Shown here in pieces: positions 17,716 through 51,807 of a stretch of DNA of 64,000 bases. The notes beneath the pieces were generated by a model that saw only the letters and a program-made list of their open reading frames with translations, had not been told where the DNA came from and did not search any database. Numbering within the stretch: the stretch's first letter is position 1; every line of letters starts with the position of its first letter. Source of the stretch: Acetobacterium woodii DSM 1030 (GTDB lineage Bacteria > Bacillota > Clostridia > Eubacteriales > Eubacteriaceae); contig NC_016894.1 of the NCBI RefSeq assembly GCF_000247605.1, forward strand, positions 2,221,732 to 2,285,731, in the 5' to 3' direction. The position numbers and the translations under genes are program-made.

Positions 17716-17756
17716 AAAAATCAAGAAAACTCAATTTGAGAATCCATTGGGTTTTA

Positions 17757-17917
17757 GATAGCACCCCATCACTGTTGTGATGACAGTCTTACTGTTCTTA
17801 ACAGCAAGCCCAGGAAAATGGTGGCGAAACATCATCCTTCGGCGATCTTTCCTTTCGCAACGTATCATCCCATTTGCCATGGTCTTCGTTGTTAGTTATA
17901 AAGCTCGCGCCTCTATC
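17757..17917 (-). promoter_or_regulatory. Lysine riboswitch (L-box)
   Basis: On the minus strand the RNA starts GATAGAGGCGCGAGC (complement of 17903-17917) and ends with GTGATGGGGTGCTATC (from 17772 down to 17757), the two halves of the L-box P1 stem and core. Between them are the other conserved blocks: GCCGAAGG before GGATGATG, CTGGGCTTGCTGTTAAG, and ACAGTAAGACTGTCATC. It is followed by an intrinsic terminator and then asd-dapA-dapB-lysC. Lysine binding is expected to favour termination, reducing lysine synthesis. Confidence 0.95.
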
Positions 17918-17977
17918 ATAATTATTATATTCGGTCATTATAGCAATTATGGTTACTAATTTCAAGTAGTTTTAATA

Positions 17978-40567: not shown

Positions 40568-42379
40568 ATGGAAATAAACAATGTAACTATTCGAAATATT
40601 TCTCAGAAAAGATATCTTTTGAAAAATCGTTATCTGCCATCGGCTGGTGACCTTGATTGGCCGCTCTTTTTAACAGTTGTTCGAGTCGTAAAACCTAAAA
40701 TAAAAACTGACCAAGAATTAACTGAAATGACGTTACTTAAGAGATATTCACCAGCTGCCGCAATCTTAGTTGATGAAGCTGGAACTATCCGTTATATTTA
40801 TGGAGAAACACGTTTCTATCTTGAAACAAAACAAAGTTATTCGGGTGTAAGTGTCAATAACGTGCTTAAACTTGCCAGAAATCGATTGCGCCGAGATTTA
40901 AATATAAGTCTTCATAAAGCAATAACAAAACAAGTAGTGGTCTCATCCTCGGATTTGTCATTAAAAATGAACGATCAAACCATGATTGTTAAACTAACGA
41001 TTCTGCCACTTTTGAAAAAAAACTTAATTGGTCAATCTGATGATTTGTATTTGATAGTTTTTGAGAAAAAAAATAACCAGATCAACCAGCAATCAATGAT
41101 TGCTGAAGAAGCATTTAAACAAAAGGAAGTCACCCTTGAACTTACAGCCAAAACCAATGAGCTACATTCCCGAGAAATGGAATTAGCAAAGATCAATAAG
41201 GACCTTGACGATGCTAAAATCGATTTTGAAACGGTCAAATCTGAGCTTGAAACATCTCGAATTAAACTACGTTCTGTAAAAGAAAATATTTTCGAATCCG
41301 AAACTGAACATAAAAAGATTAATGAAAATATAAAATTATCAAATCAGGAATTACAAATTTTAACAGATAAATTAACTGAATCACGCAACGAACTTGAAAA
41401 GATCAAACCAATTCAAGAAAAATCGAACCAAGAATTAACACCCATTGGACATGAACTAAAAACCATAAAATCCGAACTCTTGATTGCAAATCAAGAATTA
41501 AACGAACGAAAAGAAGAGCTCGAAAAATTGAATCAGGATTTTACAAAACCAACCCAAGACCTAAATCCAACCGATTATTTGAAGCTTACTGATGATGAAG
41601 TTGATTTCTCAACTTTTGGCGTTGATAATTATGGAAGTGTGATTCTGGATGAAGAACAGAATTTTGAAAAAGAAACAACTCCTCTGAATCAAAATTTAAT
41701 GCCATCAACCGAAACAAAGCTTGCAAATAATGTGTTGGTATTTAAAGACGCCTTAGATTTCCAGGAGGCCGCAAGTCACGGCTTCAGGCATGATAATGAC
41801 ATCATTTCAGTTCGTATACCCGAGGGTGTCGAGATTTTAAAAAGAAGCATGTTCTACAAATGCTCACAATTAGAAGAGGTTATCTTCCCTGAAAGTCTGA
41901 AACATATTGAAGATTTTGCATTTTATGGATGTGAAAAACTGATATCAGCAAAATTAAATCAATGTTTCGTTCTTGAAACCATTGGAACCTCAGCATTTGA
42001 AGGATGCCGTTCACTGAAAGAACTCGTTATTCCTGATTCCGTTGTTGAAATTGAGGAAGCCTCTTTTTTAGGATGTCAAGGGCTTATTACCGTTAACTTT
42101 CCAGGGAACAGCCAACTAGAAATTATCGGAAGTCATGTTTTTAAAGATTGTGTTCGACTAGAAAAAATTGCTTTACCGGATCATTTGAAACACATTGGAA
42201 TCAGTTGTTTTTATAACTGCCATAACCTAACAGAAATTTTATTACCCAAGGAATTGGAAACAGTTGGTGAATATGCTTTTTGGGGATGTGATTCATTAAT
42301 TAAAATTAGTGTTATCAATAAAAAAATACAAAAACAACCTGGTTTTAATATTGGCTTTCCCGAAGGAATTAACCTTTAA
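40568..42379 (+). CDS. PAS - coiled-coil - BspA-type leucine-rich-repeat chimera
   Basis: 603 residues. Residues about 56-165 (LLKRYSPAAAILVDEAGTIRYIYGETRFYLE) match the PAS region found in the middle of CheB-CheR fusion proteins, but no CheB or CheR domain is attached. A long coiled coil follows (about 170-340, many E-L-x-x-x-x heptads), then an acidic linker, then a BspA-type LRR_5 domain (about 390-595) with units such as LKHIEDFAFYGCEKL, LETIGTSAFEGCRSL, IEEASFLGCQGL and VGEYAFWGCDSL. BspA repeats are normally on secreted surface proteins; here there is no signal peptide. GAGGAAAAATCAGT precedes the ATG. Function unknown; likely a scaffold in the chemosensory cluster. Confidence 0.85.
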   Translation: MEINNVTIRNISQKRYLLKNRYLPSAGDLDWPLFLTVVRVVKPKIKTDQELTEMTLLKRYSPAAAILVDEAGTIRYIYGETRFYLETKQSYSGVSVNNVLKLARNRLRRDLNISLHKAITKQVVVSSSDLSLKMNDQTMIVKLTILPLLKKNLIGQSDDLYLIVFEKKNNQINQQSMIAEEAFKQKEVTLELTAKTNELHSREMELAKINKDLDDAKIDFETVKSELETSRIKLRSVKENIFESETEHKKINENIKLSNQELQILTDKLTESRNELEKIKPIQEKSNQELTPIGHELKTIKSELLIANQELNERKEELEKLNQDFTKPTQDLNPTDYLKLTDDEVDFSTFGVDNYGSVILDEEQNFEKETTPLNQNLMPSTETKLANNVLVFKDALDFQEAASHGFRHDNDIISVRIPEGVEILKRSMFYKCSQLEEVIFPESLKHIEDFAFYGCEKLISAKLNQCFVLETIGTSAFEGCRSLKELVIPDSVVEIEEASFLGCQGLITVNFPGNSQLEIIGSHVFKDCVRLEKIALPDHLKHIGISCFYNCHNLTEILLPKELETVGEYAFWGCDSLIKISVINKKIQKQPGFNIGFPEGINL

Positions 42380-45133: not shown

Positions 45134-45162
45134 TTGACAAAAATTAATAAACGTACTATAAT
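45134..45162 (+). promoter_or_regulatory. Consensus promoter of the PerR-like gene
   Basis: TTGACA (45134-45139) and TATAAT (45157-45162) are both perfect consensus with a 17-base spacer. The downstream TATAA-taag-TTATA could be part of a Fur/PerR-type box overlapping the start site. Confidence 0.85.
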
Positions 45163-45197: not shown

Positions 45198-45611
45198 ATG
45201 AAAAATAAAAAAATACAAATATACACAGATATGATTCGTAATGTTGGATTAAAAGCGACACCACAACGTATTAGTGTTCTAAAAGTCCTCTCTGAGATGT
45301 CATCACATCCAAGTGCTGATATGTTAATGGATGCACTTGGTGACCAAGGGTATGTTATGTCGGTAGGAACAATTTATAATATTTTGGAAACTTTTTCTGA
45401 AAAAGGTTTGATTTTAAAATTAAAGGATAATCATGAAGTGATGCGTTTTGATGCAAATACTAAGTTTCATGTGCATATCTACAATAATGAAGACAATGGA
45501 ATTTGTGATTTTTTTGATCCTGAATTAGAAGTTTTACTCGCTAACTATTTTAAGAATAAATTACCTGAGGAAGTTTTATTGAATCGAATGGAAGTTTCTA
45601 TTTTTGCTTAA
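45198..45611 (+). CDS. Fur/PerR-family regulator lacking the structural zinc cysteines
   Basis: 137 residues. The DNA-binding part (LKATPQRISVLKVLSEMSSH, VGTIYNILETFSEKGLI) and dimer part fit Fur-family proteins. Regulatory-metal ligands like those of PerR are visible: His in SSHPS, Asp in MRFDAN, two His in KFHVHIY and Asp in CDFFD. The two CxxC pairs that hold structural zinc in PerR/Fur are absent; there is a single cysteine. PerR-type proteins sense peroxide via metal-catalysed His oxidation. It precedes the cooS-like operon by about 490 bases and has a perfect consensus promoter. Confidence 0.87.
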   Translation: MKNKKIQIYTDMIRNVGLKATPQRISVLKVLSEMSSHPSADMLMDALGDQGYVMSVGTIYNILETFSEKGLILKLKDNHEVMRFDANTKFHVHIYNNEDNGICDFFDPELEVLLANYFKNKLPEEVLLNRMEVSIFA

Positions 45612-45730: not shown

Positions 45731-45759
45731 TTGACAAATATTAATTCTATATTTATAAT
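45731..45759 (+). promoter_or_regulatory. Consensus promoter of the cooS-like operon
   Basis: TTGACA (45731-45736) and TATAAT (45754-45759) are perfect with a 17-base spacer. If used, it gives a leader of about 330 bases before the cooS-like start; that leader (45766-46098) holds no gene and no known riboswitch I can recognise. Confidence 0.8.
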
Positions 45760-46098: not shown

Positions 46099-47982
46099 AT
46101 GAATTCAAATTTTAGCTGTAAAACCTGTGCAAGTGCGGACAAAAATCTCGAAACATTCATTGCTGATCTAAGTGTTGAAACATCTCATCACCGCATGGAA
46201 GGACAAAATGTTAAATGTGGTTTCGGGTTACAAGGCATTTGCTGCCGTTTATGTTCAAACGGACCATGTCGAATTACCCCAGATGGACCAAAAGGTGTCT
46301 GCGGCGCTACCGCAGATACAATTGTTGCTCGTAATTTCTTAAGAGCAGTATCAGCCGGATCAGGATGTTATATTCACATTGTTGAAAATACAGCCCGCTT
46401 ACTTAAAAAAACTGCGGCTAGTAAAGGCCTGTTAAAAGGGAAAATTGCACTGGCAAAACTGGTTGAGATTTTTGAAATCGATGAAACTGATGAACATATT
46501 TGTGCCGAAAAAATCGCTGATCTGGTTTTAGCTGATTTGTATAAACCTGATTATGAAAAAATGGAACTTGTTGAAAAGATGGCCTATAAACCGCGTTTTG
46601 AACGTTGGAAAGAACTGGGTATCTTGCCTGGTGGAGCAAAATCCGAAGTTTTTGCGGGAGTTGTTAAAACCTCAACGAATCTTAACTCTGATCCAGTTGA
46701 TATGTATCTAAATTGCTTAAAACTGGGAATTTCAACCGGTCTTTATGGTTTAACACTGACAAATCTTCTTAATGATGTTATTTTAGGTGAACCATCGATC
46801 CGATTAGCTCCCGTTGGTTTACGCGTTATTGATACCGATTATATTAATATCATGATTACCGGTCACCAGCATTCATTGTTTTCCTATCTACAGGATCACC
46901 TGATTGACGAAGCAGTTATTGAGAAAGCTAAGGCTGTAGGTGCAAAAGGGTTTAAACTAGTTGGCTGTACCTGTGTTGGACAAGACCTTCAACTACGTGG
47001 CGAACATTACCAAGAGGTATTTAACGGACATGCGGGAAATAACTTTACCAGTGAAGCGATTCTTGCTACTGGCGCAATTGATGCCGTATTATCCGAATTC
47101 AATTGTACTTTACCAGGCATTGAACCAATCTGTGACGAATTTAAAATTAAACAAATCTGTTTGGACGACGTTTCTAAAAAGGCTAATGCTGAAATGAAAC
47201 CTTTTATTTTTGAAGAAAGAGAAAGCCAGGCTGACGAAATTATTAACGAAGTGATTGAGGCTTATCAAGCGCGACGTGGCAATGTTCCTTTGAATATGGA
47301 TCCAGAGCATGGGAATGACGATACCTTAACCGGTGTCAGTGAAGGGTCATTAAAATCATTTTTAGGTGGAACCTGGAAACCACTGATTGATTTACTAGTT
47401 AGTGGCGATATCAAAGGGATTGCCGGTGTTGTTGGATGTTCAAGCTTAACAGCCGGTGGACATGATGTCTTAACGGTTGGGTTGGTAAAAGAACTGATTG
47501 CTAAAGATATTCTTGTTTTATCTGCCGGATGTTCATCAGGCGGACTCGAAAATGTTGGTTTAATGTCACCTTCCGCGGCTGCGCTGGCAGGGCCAAAACT
47601 ACGGGCAGTTTGTGAAAGTCTGGGAATTCCACCAGTTTTAAACTTTGGTCCATGTCTCGCCATTGGCCGTCTGGAATTAGTTGCTACGGAACTGGCCGAA
47701 GCTATCGGTGTTGATCTTCCGCAATTACCACTCGTTTTATCGGCGCCGCAATGGTTAGAAGAGCAAGCTTTAGCTGATGGAGCGTTTGGTTTAGCCCTTG
47801 GTTTACCATTACATCTCGGACTTCCACCATTTGTAACTGGTAGTCCAGTAGCTGTTCAGGTCTTTACTCAAGACATGCTTAATCTTACTGGCGGTCAATT
47901 AATTATAGATGATAATGCAAAATCAGCAGCCGAAACACTCGATGGAATCATCGAAAAGAAACGAAAAGAATTAAACATCTAA
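46099..47982 (+). CDS. CooS-like carbon monoxide dehydrogenase homologue with altered active site
   Basis: 627 residues. The metal-cluster scaffold of anaerobic CODH is present: Cys40 and Cys48 (D-cluster), Cys49, Cys52, Cys57 and Cys68 (B-cluster), and by alignment with C. hydrogenoformans CODH-II all six C-cluster ligands, His256, Cys292, Cys336, Cys447, Cys478 and Cys519. But the catalytic Lys563 position is Gln556 (WLEEQAL), and the histidine channel His93/96/99/102 reads Tyr91, Ile94, Asn97, Arg100. The C-cluster surroundings also differ (GCTCVGQ, NFGPCLAIGR). So the protein may not oxidise CO; a CODH-V-like role with a modified cluster and hydroxylamine- or oxidant-type substrates is an alternative. 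GGAGG lies 7 bases before the ATG. Confidence 0.92.
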   Translation: MNSNFSCKTCASADKNLETFIADLSVETSHHRMEGQNVKCGFGLQGICCRLCSNGPCRITPDGPKGVCGATADTIVARNFLRAVSAGSGCYIHIVENTARLLKKTAASKGLLKGKIALAKLVEIFEIDETDEHICAEKIADLVLADLYKPDYEKMELVEKMAYKPRFERWKELGILPGGAKSEVFAGVVKTSTNLNSDPVDMYLNCLKLGISTGLYGLTLTNLLNDVILGEPSIRLAPVGLRVIDTDYINIMITGHQHSLFSYLQDHLIDEAVIEKAKAVGAKGFKLVGCTCVGQDLQLRGEHYQEVFNGHAGNNFTSEAILATGAIDAVLSEFNCTLPGIEPICDEFKIKQICLDDVSKKANAEMKPFIFEERESQADEIINEVIEAYQARRGNVPLNMDPEHGNDDTLTGVSEGSLKSFLGGTWKPLIDLLVSGDIKGIAGVVGCSSLTAGGHDVLTVGLVKELIAKDILVLSAGCSSGGLENVGLMSPSAAALAGPKLRAVCESLGIPPVLNFGPCLAIGRLELVATELAEAIGVDLPQLPLVLSAPQWLEEQALADGAFGLALGLPLHLGLPPFVTGSPVAVQVFTQDMLNLTGGQLIIDDNAKSAAETLDGIIEKKRKELNI

Positions 47983-47994
47983 GGAGGTGTAATC

Positions 47995-48444
47995 ATGAAA
48001 CGAATCATCATTGATCGTGAAAAATGCGATGGTTGTCTAAACTGCAATGTCGCCTGTATCAGTGCCCATGAAGAAGGCAGTAATTTTTACACCGTTAACT
48101 TGCAAAGCATCGATTCTGAAACGCGTAACTTTATTAAATTTGATCCTAAAACTGGTTACACGCCAATTTTCTGTCGCCATTGTGACGAACCGGAATGTGT
48201 CTTATCCTGTATGAGTGGAGCGCTTGAAAAGGATCCGAAAACTGGTCACGTACAATATGACGAAACAAAATGTGCGGCTTGTTACATGTGTGTAATGAAT
48301 TGTCCGTACGGCGTTTTGAAACCAGATAATAAAACCCATACCAAAGTTATCAAATGTGATTTTTGTGAAGATAAACCCGATGGCCCAAGTTGTGTCAAAG
48401 CATGTCCTAAACACGCCATTGAAGTGAAAGAGGTAAGTTTATGA
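47995..48444 (+). CDS. CooF-like 4Fe-4S ferredoxin
   Basis: 149 residues with four cysteine clusters typical of the CooF/HycB/DmsB group: CDGCLNCNVAC, CRHCDEPECVLSC, CAACYMCVMNCP and CDFCEDKPDGPSCVKAC, enough for four [4Fe-4S] centres. It carries electrons between the cooS-like protein and a partner. AAGGAGG stands 6 bases before the ATG, 12 bases after the cooS-like stop, and its end overlaps the next gene by 4 bases (ATGA), so the three are one operon. Confidence 0.93.
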   Translation: MKRIIIDREKCDGCLNCNVACISAHEEGSNFYTVNLQSIDSETRNFIKFDPKTGYTPIFCRHCDEPECVLSCMSGALEKDPKTGHVQYDETKCAACYMCVMNCPYGVLKPDNKTHTKVIKCDFCEDKPDGPSCVKACPKHAIEVKEVSL

Positions 48445-49673
48445 AAATTGTGATTATCGGCGCCAGCGCTGCTGGAATCAGTGCGGCGAAAACAATCAAA
48501 TCAACAAAACCGGACACTGAAATAGTGATTATTTCTAAAGAAGATCGTATTCATTCTCGCTGTATGCTACATAAATTTTTAGGGCATGAACGCGATGCTC
48601 AAGGTATCAGCTTTGTTAATGAAGATTTTTTTGAAAAAAATAATATTACTTTGCTAAATAACACAACGGTTATTGGTCTAGAGCCCGATAAAAAGATTGT
48701 AAAAACACATGACAACCAGGATATTTCTTATGATAAATTACTGATTGCCACCGGGGCATCTTACTTCATTCCACCAATTCCAGGATTGCGAGAATCCAAA
48801 AATGTTTATGGTTTTAGGGATTTAAAAGATGCTCAACTACTGGATACCGAATGTTTAACCGCCAAAAATGCGGTAGTCATTGGTGCCGGACTCGTTGGAA
48901 TGGATGCTGTCGCCGCTTTATTGGAACGCGGTTTGAAAGTGACTGTTATCGAAATGACTGCAGATATTATGAGCTTGCAGCTTGATAAAAAATCAGCCCA
49001 GGCGTATCAACAGCTTTTTGAAAAAGAGGGTGCTGAATTTATCTTAAATGATAAGGTGGTATCGGTAGATGTTAACGCTGTGGGAAGAGGTGAAATGGTT
49101 CATCTTGCCAGTGGTAAAGCGGTTCCCGCCGATGTTATAGTGATCGCTGCTGGGGTACGTCCGGCTTTTAGATTTGTGGAAGAATCTGAGATAAAAACTA
49201 ATCATGCGATATTGGTTGGCGATGACTTACAAACAAATATCAATGGTATTTATGCGGCTGGAGATGTAAATGGGATCGCTGGAATTTGGCCCAATGCGAT
49301 GAAACAAGGAAAAATTGCGGCCCTTAATATGCTTGGTGAGAATCTTCGTTATGATGATCGTTATGCCCTTAAAAACACCATGAATTTCTATGGTCTCACG
49401 ACTCTTTCCTTGGGAAATATTAATCCCGAAGACGAAGAAAAATGTGATATATTTACTCGCGAAGACCGCAATAATTATCAAAAAATCGTCATCCGAAATG
49501 GAATCATTCAAGGCGTTATCATGCAGGGGAATATTAACGGAAGTGGTTTCTGGCAATATCTGATTAAAAATAAAATTGATGTTTCCGGAATTAATAAAGA
49601 TATCTTTGATCTAAGTTTTGCAGATTTTTATGGTATCAACCAGGAAAATGGCGAGTACAACTATGCTGTTTAA
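48441..49673 (+). CDS. FAD-dependent NAD(P)H oxidoreductase
   Basis: 410 residues. FAD site at the N-terminus (IVIIGASAAGISAAKTI), a second dinucleotide site at about 150 (AVVIGAGLVGMDAVAAL, with VTVIEMT after it) and the FAD-distal motif NGIYAAGDV. This is the NirB/rubredoxin-reductase type of pyridine-nucleotide oxidoreductase without a redox-active disulfide. It would pass electrons between NAD(P)H and the CooF-like ferredoxin. In some acetogens similar genes follow cooS-cooF. The C-terminal 90 residues are a typical extra domain. Overlaps the ferredoxin gene by 4 bases. Confidence 0.93.
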   Translation: MKIVIIGASAAGISAAKTIKSTKPDTEIVIISKEDRIHSRCMLHKFLGHERDAQGISFVNEDFFEKNNITLLNNTTVIGLEPDKKIVKTHDNQDISYDKLLIATGASYFIPPIPGLRESKNVYGFRDLKDAQLLDTECLTAKNAVVIGAGLVGMDAVAALLERGLKVTVIEMTADIMSLQLDKKSAQAYQQLFEKEGAEFILNDKVVSVDVNAVGRGEMVHLASGKAVPADVIVIAAGVRPAFRFVEESEIKTNHAILVGDDLQTNINGIYAAGDVNGIAGIWPNAMKQGKIAALNMLGENLRYDDRYALKNTMNFYGLTTLSLGNINPEDEEKCDIFTREDRNNYQKIVIRNGIIQGVIMQGNINGSGFWQYLIKNKIDVSGINKDIFDLSFADFYGINQENGEYNYAV

Positions 49674-51162: not shown

Positions 51163-51807
51163 TCAATAATCAAGAGGATCTTCTACACAGTCTATAATAG
51201 CCTTCTTAAAGGCCTCGCAAGCAGTTCGACAATTCGATTGAGTCCCGGTTAAAATCGCACCACTTAGATTCGAATGCGTTGGCGGGCCAAAGAATTTAAC
51301 AACTTCAACATCGGCAACAGTTAGCGCTTCATCAACACCAACAACACCTTCCAAGGCAGGAGCGAACAAAAAAGCGATCGAAGAACCAATCGGTAAATCA
51401 TAAGTTTTAGAAAAATATTTCCCGATTTTCGGCACTAGTTGAGCATAAATCAGATTACTGTTATCTTCATTGGCACTGTAGACACTGGATTTATTTTCAG
51501 CGTAATCGCGGATATATCGTAACCCGCTTTCTACATCAGAAACAGTAGGACCGGTGATGACACCAAAAACCTGACCGTCATTTAAACCAGCCCCGGCTCC
51601 GTAAAGAGTTTTGATGTAGACGACATCAACATTAGCTGTCTTGGTAGCTTCATCAGCTGCACAGTATCCGACCCCATCGTATTGGGTTGTAAAAATTCCG
51701 ATATCGATACACCCTTCCGGTAAATCAAATTCTTCTAACATGATGTCTTCAACATCGGTCAACATTTTACTATAAACGATATTACATTTAACTCTGTCTC
51801 CAGTCAT
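51163..51807 (-). CDS. eutL: EutL-type bacterial microcompartment shell protein
   Basis: 214 residues with two tandem BMC domains, as in EutL of the ethanolamine microcompartment, whose trimers form pseudohexameric shell tiles with a gated pore. Matching stretches are CAADEATKTANVDVVYIKTLYGAGA in the first half and AFLFAPALEGVVGVDEALTVADVEVV with GAILTGTQSNCRTACEAFKKA in the second. AGGAG is 6 bases before the ATG. No other shell protein or eut enzyme is near; the next gene is accA with a terminator between. A lone EutL may serve a locus elsewhere. Confidence 0.88.
   Translation of the reverse strand: MTGDRVKCNIVYSKMLTDVEDIMLEEFDLPEGCIDIGIFTTQYDGVGYCAADEATKTANVDVVYIKTLYGAGAGLNDGQVFGVITGPTVSDVESGLRYIRDYAENKSSVYSANEDNSNLIYAQLVPKIGKYFSKTYDLPIGSSIAFLFAPALEGVVGVDEALTVADVEVVKFFGPPTHSNLSGAILTGTQSNCRTACEAFKKAIIDCVEDPLDY

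Follow-up and report, generated by a model that had tools for sequence, protein, structure and literature searches.

Inoue et al. 2019 (PMC6344411) reported that all four groups of clade C of the carbon monoxide dehydrogenase (CODH) homologues keep the C-cluster residues but have the acid-base His and Lys replaced by Tyr and Gln. The Tyr/Gln replacement is thus already published as a hallmark of the whole clade, and the residue observation is not new. For a group likewise called "clade C," which we infer to be the clade C of Inoue et al., a CooS-CooF-FNOR neighborhood, a likeness to NarB and NarC, and an Rrf2 regulator have been described (PMC3082573). The activity of clade C was left open by Bohm and Land 2026 (PMC13056359), who suggested that clades C and D act in regulation or redox sensing, with low or no CO activity expected, and who placed the CooS of T. 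kivui (TKV_c08080) in clade C. The purified T. kivui CooS-CooF1 nevertheless showed activities of 13.9 U/mg (CO:MV) and 0.5 U/mg (CO:Fd) and a Km for CO of 5.0 μM, and deletion of cooS in the CO-adapted strain abolished growth on CO (PMC8683389). Set side by side, the published residue table and the T. kivui activity raise the question of how a CODH turns over without the supposedly essential Lys and His.

Two Acetobacterium woodii papers (one of them PMC7533326) draw the CooS of this organism as the CO oxidizer, or as one of two, and the passages in which they do so make no mention of its pocket residues. If the A. woodii enzyme does not oxidize CO, models of acetogens on CO need correction, as does the annotation of a clade that numbered 168 operons in the 2026 analysis (PMC13056359). 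The gene is named Awo_c19050 in PMC7533326, and this name would belong to the open reading frame at 46099 to 47982 of the window, the whole 64,000-nucleotide stretch of A. woodii DNA analyzed here. The features of the locus are as follows.

45198..45611 (+): Fur-family regulator, 137 aa, possible regulator of the cooS unit (ORF plus profile match)
45731..45759 (+): promoter-like TTGACA-17-TATAAT upstream of cooS, 12/12 matches (consensus match only)
46099..47982 (+): CooS, CODH homologue of 627 aa, assigned to clade C (structural group C-1) by ORF call, TIGR01702, alignment, signature, and tree
46117..46128 (+): N-terminal CKTC (Cys7, Cys10), matching the extra Cys motif of group C-1 (sequence)
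46366..46377 (+): codons 90 to 93, with Cys90 (private to clade C), Tyr91 (CODH-II His93), and His93 (CODH-II position 95) (alignment)
46972..46974 (+): Cys292 codon (C-cluster ligand Cys295; Glu in CooS-V) (alignment)
47101..47103 (+): Asn335 codon (CODH-II Gln332, CooS-V Asn337) (alignment)
47758..47778 (+): codons 554 to 560, with Glu554 (CooS-V Glu556, HCP Glu494), Gln556 (catalytic Lys563), and Asp560 (Ile567) (alignment)
47995..48444 (+): CooF-like electron-transfer protein, 149 aa, 16 Cys in four groups of four; starts 12 bases after cooS
48441..49673 (+): FNOR, FAD/NAD(P) oxidoreductase, 410 aa, Pyr_redox_2 plus Rubredoxin_C; 4-base overlap with the end of cooF

The equivalence of Glu556 in CooS-V and Glu494 in HCP is taken from the CooS-V paper (PMC9311411).

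Pocket residues and clade membership

The A. woodii genome encodes three members of the prismane family, namely HCP (699 bits against TIGR01703), a CODH beside CooC, which was taken for AcsA, and the window CooS. The last scored 756 bits against TIGR01702 (cutoff, 478) and 20.6 bits against the HCP model TIGR01703 (cutoff, 360.8). We aligned it by MAFFT with five solved CODH-fold chains, the A. woodii AcsA and HCP, and 80 relatives kept from 93 found by a scan of genome contigs. As an earlier note on this DNA had claimed from an alignment by eye, the six C-cluster ligands of CODH-II (His261, Cys295, Cys333, Cys446, Cys476, and Cys526) have counterparts in the window protein (His256, Cys292, Cys336, Cys447, Cys478, and Cys519, respectively), and the B- and D-cluster cysteines (Cys40, Cys48, Cys49, Cys52, Cys57, and Cys68) are also in place. 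Every replacement that it had listed was likewise right: the acid-base residues Lys563 and His93 correspond to Gln556 and Tyr91, and the other channel positions, His96, His99, and His102, correspond to Ile94, Asn97, and Arg100. Gln and Tyr kept these positions when CODH-II, CooS-V, and the CODH relatives were aligned together.

The window CooS is of CODH type in sequence and predicted fold and has full sets of B-, C-, and D-cluster ligands. Its AlphaFold2 model (pLDDT 92.6) retrieved CooS-V (7b7q) first in Foldseek (TM 0.94) and the Thermococcus CODH next (0.92), with CODH-II also at 0.92; these scores are too close between CooS-V and the other CODHs for the ranking to be an argument on function.

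All 80 relatives share Tyr91, Gln556, and the full set of cluster ligands (80/80); the nearest named ones are Acetobacterium species at 90 to 93% identity. Two Acetobacterium orthologues gave dN/dS values of 0.032 and 0.023 at dS above 1.5; in three other comparisons dS was unusable. This agreement and the strong purifying selection rule out a sequencing error, decay, or a pseudogene.

The earlier note had also written of a lost histidine channel. Among the relatives, window position 94 is Ile (43) or Val (37), position 97 is Asn in 78/80, and position 100 is variable. In 44 rows with a canonical pocket, His93 and His96 were present throughout (44/44 each), whereas His99 was found in 33/44 and His102 in 22/44, so that only the loss of His93 and His96 is informative. 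Clade C has an invariant His at CODH-II position 95 instead (window His93), seen in 101/101 clade C rows and 0/44 canonical rows. Two clade D-like groups have it as well, in 15/15 and 34/42 rows. Cys90 and Cys354 are more specific, both occurring in every clade C row (100% of 101) and in no more than 7% of the rows of any other group.

These counts come from a survey of 203 rows (reference chains, the window protein, and CooS-like ORFs from 209 loci) that included matches of at least 150 bits and more than 480 residues, copies identical over the final 500 residues having been removed. It covers mostly Bacillota and, of the archaea, a few bins near the window's type, archaeal clade C groups such as C-3 being absent. 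A pocket signature was read at CODH-II positions 93, 295, 332, 561, 563, and 567. Clade C reads YCNEQD in 101 rows, which count the window gene twice (WIN and L114) and so represent 100 genes; YENEKD (42 rows) includes CooS-V, YCNEKD accounts for 15 rows, and HCQ[S/H/A]KI is the canonical type (44 rows). The single HCP row has Asn, Glu, Lys, and Ile at the last four positions. Among loci added later, two read NCNEKD and one was of a clade B-like type.

Asn335, Glu554, and Asp560 are thus common to clade C and CooS-V, and the Glu554 and Asn335 positions also match one HCP. The Glu of CooS-V ligates iron, and the Asn contacts a cluster-bound water (PMC9311411). Judging by the solved relatives to which they align, Glu554, Asn335, and Asp560 of the window protein would likewise lie at or near the cluster. 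We found no statement of this sharing in the parts of the clade C literature consulted, and Figure 2 of Inoue et al. may show it. The clade C-private cysteines, these three matches, and the CooC trend described below are the additions that we did not see in print.

On sequence grounds, the window CooS falls in clade C, group C-1. It combines Tyr at the His93 position and Gln at the Lys563 position with six C-cluster ligands, and it has a type II D cluster, Cys-(X)7-13-Cys-Cys (C40-x7-C48-C49). Its N terminus carries Cys7 and Cys10, in line with the two to four extra Cys of the group (an aligned Cys10 occurs in 97% of clade C rows and an aligned Cys7 in 83%), and CooF and FNOR are its neighbors (the CooF of the group is COG0437-type in print). 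The difference from group C-1 as described by Inoue et al. lies in the nearby regulator, which is Fur-like; a phmmer search (E up to 0.01) found no ORF in the window resembling the NsrR/IscR-like (Rrf2) regulator of the group, which in print is an association rather than a requirement (PMC6344411).

The other types fit less well. Canonical CooS proteins of clades E and F (CODH-II, CODH-IV, and the Thermococcus CODH) share the fold and all cluster ligands but have His93, Lys563, Gln332, Ser/His/Ala561, Ile567, and His96, each in 44/44 rows; the window protein has the six C-cluster ligands of a catalytic Ni,Fe-CODH without the acid-base Lys563 and His93. CooS-V of Carboxydothermus (7b7q; group D-1) shares the pocket Tyr, Asn, Glu, and Asp, the Glu at the HCP Glu494 position being Glu554 in 80/80 relatives. 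It differs in having Glu for Cys295, Lys at 563, and a [2Fe-2S] D cluster; the window protein has neither this Glu (it has Cys292) nor a type III D cluster, and direct membership in the CooS-V group is ruled out by the retention of Cys295. HCP belongs to the same Pfam family (PF03063) and has the Asn and Glu positions in common (in the one HCP compared, that of A. woodii itself) but keeps Lys where the window CooS has Gln.

In a tree of 60 chosen rows out of the 203, built by a quick method, clade C rows including the T. kivui CooS, the published clade C member with which the window CooS groups, were set apart from all other rows by a branch with SH-aLRT 100, and a single change suffices for Gln at position 563. 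The T. kivui CooS and its neighbor formed the deepest branch among the clade C rows. With HCP as the root, the root branch reaches a length of 10; such a long branch leaves the order of the remaining groups uncertain, and the tree allows no conclusion on the ancestral pocket.

Comparison with the CooS of T. kivui

A search in the Thermoanaerobacter family turned up a locus (L116, genome G401) that exactly matches the forward primer for cooS cloning and one of the deletion primers published for T. kivui (PMC8683389); a related locus (L115) matches only the cloning primer. By the exact match of two published primers, L116 is the T. kivui CooS (TKV_c08080). Its pocket (Y93, C295, N332, E561, Q563, and D567) is identical to that of the window protein at the six tabulated positions, it agrees with the clade marks at 20 of 21 positions hand-picked from the survey, and a CooF neighbor is also present. 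It differs in that it keeps His96, has no FNOR beside it, lacks the N-terminal CxxC, and branches deepest, and it is 51 to 52% identical to the window protein.

The earlier note had reasoned from a need for Lys563 and His93 in CO oxidation by known CODHs. That premise does not extend to clade C, because the T. kivui CooS has the same pocket and oxidizes CO slowly; the missing Lys563 and His93 are therefore no proof of a non-CO role. Since the replacement is known for the whole group and a related enzyme with the same pocket is active, the window CooS is probably unusual rather than dead. Contamination with AcsAB, which has activities of 213.9 U/mg (CO:MV) and 111.5 U/mg (CO:Fd) in the same organism (PMC8683389), is unlikely as the sole source of the T. 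kivui CooS activity, given MV:Fd ratios of 27.8 for CooS and 1.9 for AcsAB. Were all of the Fd activity due to AcsAB, contamination would be ~0.45% and would bring ~1 U/mg of MV activity, which explains only ~1 of the 13.9 U/mg, so most of the MV activity is CooS's own.

The words "residue" and "clade" are absent from the main text of the T. kivui paper, and a search mostly by title and the start of the abstract found no publication joining the activity of this CooS with the missing Lys and His. The passages on the enzyme give its iron content and no nickel content (PMC8683389), Bohm and Land noted that the T. kivui allele tested may not be wild type (PMC13056359), and in the CO-adapted strain CO-1, cooS and cooF1 were lower on CO than on H2/CO2 (PMC12056078). 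Structures of the K563A and H93A variants of CODH-II appear in the Foldseek listing; for their kinetics, we recognized no publication among 12 listed of the 167 that matched a literature search.

Genetic data come from C. autoethanogenum, whose cooS1 is clade C (PMC13056359, PMC6344411). Loss of cooS1 lengthened the lag on pure CO by 2.9 days and lowered the OD by 42% but gave faster growth on H2 and CO2, and an acsA mutant that retained cooS1 and cooS2 showed no CO oxidation and produced 2.03 mmol CO (PMC4895105). The CO production and the faster growth on H2 and CO2 would suit a unit that works towards CO, for reductant disposal or to provide CO for ACS, a direction that we nevertheless consider improbable. 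The CO/CO2 potential, about −0.52 V, is far below that of NAD(P)H, about −0.32 V. The acsA mutant also has CooS2, and T. kivui needs the enzyme for growth on CO (PMC8683389).

Our best explanation, held at about even confidence, is that the A. woodii CooS is a slow CO-oxidizing redox enzyme linked to NAD(P), forming a unit with CooF and FNOR. By analogy with the T. kivui CooS, it would still hold a cluster that oxidizes CO slowly and with high affinity. The acid-base work may have been taken over by other residues, for which Glu554, Asp560, and His93 are candidates. The proposed electron path leads from CO by way of the B and D clusters and the four CooF clusters to FNOR and NAD(P)+. To judge by the neighboring regulators and the published expression data, the unit may be a side path in redox balance or stress, and the main CO route into acetate would be served by AcsA. 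We counted for CO oxidation the T. kivui activity and deletion phenotype, the behavior of the cooS1 mutant on CO, the invariant ligands, and the conserved gene triad described below. Against it, we counted the distance of the T. kivui CooS (its identity of 51 to 52%, deepest position, retained His96, and missing FNOR), the failure of the acsA mutant to oxidize CO with cooS1 and cooS2 present, the lack of a CooC match at 1e-10 in 15 of 19 genomes (below), and, on the published side, the missing nickel figure, the doubt about the allele, and the lower cooS and cooF1 levels on CO in CO-1.

Partner genes, regulators, and CooC

Among 88 loci examined, the CooS-CooF-FNOR triad was present in 71 of the 77 with at least 2.2 kb downstream. 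We take the earlier description of this neighborhood to be that of Matson et al. 2011. The conservation of the electron-transfer partners bears on the suggestion that the protein has no catalytic task and instead senses redox state or gas, or is a relic. The regulatory or redox-sensing roles and low or no CO activity proposed by Bohm and Land for clades C and D (PMC13056359) would fit it, but the conserved partners, the purifying selection on an invariant pocket, and the activity of the T. kivui CooS (PMC8683389) all speak against it, and we regard it as very improbable.

Upstream of cooS, a Fur-family gene occurs within 4 kb in 9 of the 76 loci with at least 2.5 kb upstream, all of them at least 91% identical to the window (Acetobacterium type), and an ArsR gene occurs in 3/76; the window has both. 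An Rrf2 gene lies within 2.5 kb upstream in 29 of the 78 loci with at least 2.0 kb upstream. The earlier note had read a PerR-like and an ArsR neighbor as signs of a stress or redox role. The Fur-family gene is indeed there, but the PerR label was rejected, as the best NCBIfam matches are far below the cutoff, and with ArsR in only 3/76 loci that link is weak. A promoter-like site similar to that of the window was seen upstream of cooS in the 11 other Acetobacterium-type loci examined.

A search with the A. woodii CooC covered 44 clade C-bearing genomes, of which 23 were hand-picked from the 80 loci (named strains plus one MAG); the 21 others were the window's own genome, all 18 phylum-draw genomes whose match reached 58% identity or more, and 2 from the Thermoanaerobacter family. 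At least one CODH has a canonical pocket in 25/44 genomes, and 19/44 have clade C without a canonical CooS. The clade C gene of one genome (G276) is a fragment that reads CNEQD at the five positions covered. CooC matched at E 1e-52 or better in 24/25 canonical-CODH genomes; the exception (G360) is 89% complete, its canonical CODH is a fragment located where a contig ends (3/6 positions read), and its CooC match is weak (1.1e-17). Of the 19 genomes without a canonical CooS, 3 had a strong match (G426, G271, and G050, the last beside a clade B-like gene) and 1 a weak one (G420, 2.3e-13), and in 15/19 no CooC was found at 1e-10. In G425 and G344, which are complete or in one contig, clade C is the sole CooS and CooC had no match. 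The line between strong and weak was set after the scores had been seen, and because some genomes are incomplete, species are related, and archaeal-type CdhA was left out of the search, the pattern is a trend rather than a statistic: clade C genomes without a canonical CooS mostly lack the Ni insertase CooC.

The main rival to slow CO oxidation is a reductase fed by NADH, in which FNOR and CooF would supply a Ni-free or Ni-poor Fe-S(-O) cluster, bound by the C-cluster ligands and Glu554, that reduces hydroxylamine, NO, or peroxide under stress; we consider it possible and hold it tentatively. It would account for the rarity of strong CooC matches (3/19), for the Rrf2 gene upstream in 29/78 loci, and for Glu554 and Asn335 at the positions that bind or touch the hybrid cluster in CooS-V (Glu556 and Asn337). 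It also agrees with the resemblance of CooF and FNOR in a related group to NarB and NarC, which serve nitrate reductase (PMC3082573), and with the finding, cited by Inoue et al. (PMC6344411), that O2 induces C-1 genes in C. ljungdahlii and C. acetobutylicum. However, Cys295, whose exchange is tied to the hybrid cluster (PMC9311411), is kept, and CooS-V and HCP retain the Lys that is Gln in the window CooS. Moreover, CooS-V is itself poor at hydroxylamine reduction (PMC9311411), and the T. kivui CooS oxidizes CO (PMC8683389).

The non-CO role like that of CooS-V proposed in the earlier note thus goes further than the evidence allows. The shared Tyr, Asn, Glu, and Asp support it, as do the Fur-family and Rrf2 genes upstream, the 19/44 genomes without a canonical CooS and mostly without CooC, and the acsA mutant that made CO instead of oxidizing it. 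On the other side stand the retained Cys295, Gln in place of the Lys of CooS-V and HCP, CO oxidation by the T. kivui CooS, and the slower growth on CO upon loss of cooS1. A broader proposal, which we think unlikely though conceivable, is that clade C represents a third active-site type among CODHs and HCPs, with the C-cluster ligands, the Glu and Asn of the hybrid cluster, Gln for Lys, acid-base chemistry on new residues, and CooC-free assembly; it might even switch between a Ni,Fe form that slowly oxidizes CO and a Ni-free reductase according to host or metal supply.

Other observations at the locus and in the window

A. tundrae and A. paludosum (L079 and L081) have a palindrome, AATTATAATGATTATAATA, ~293 bases upstream of cooS; it overlaps the −10 of the cooS promoter and resembles a PerR box. 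The window has a perfect 9-1-9 palindrome at the −10 of its cooS promoter, with a sequence different from AATTATAATGATTATAATA. The promoter-like sites of the Fur gene (45134 to 45148) and cooS (45731 to 45745) share TTGACAAA(A/T)ATTAAT in 14/15 bases, perhaps a common operator.

Clade C CooS proteins of 70 to 73% identity occur in archaeal bins (L061, L068 to L073, L034, and L074) assigned to Bathycorpusculum, a termite-gut genus, and others, which suggests either interdomain transfer or wrong binning. In Extibacter (L075/L232), the clade C gene matches the profile in two stretches that leave part of it uncovered, and in a Lacrimispora genome (L270, G430) a CooS-V-type gene is split over two frames.

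Elsewhere in the window, a lysine riboswitch lies at 17751 to 17923 (−; 112.6 bits). The gene for a 603-aa protein at 40568 to 42379 (+), which by eye has a coiled middle and an end resembling leucine-rich repeats and which has a weak HupY match, adjoins a CheR-like methyltransferase gene. An EutL-like microcompartment shell protein is encoded at 51163 to 51807 (−), with no other microcompartment gene among the few window genes annotated; it scored 207.6 bits against one model, under the cutoff, and 203.7 bits against another, over the cutoff.
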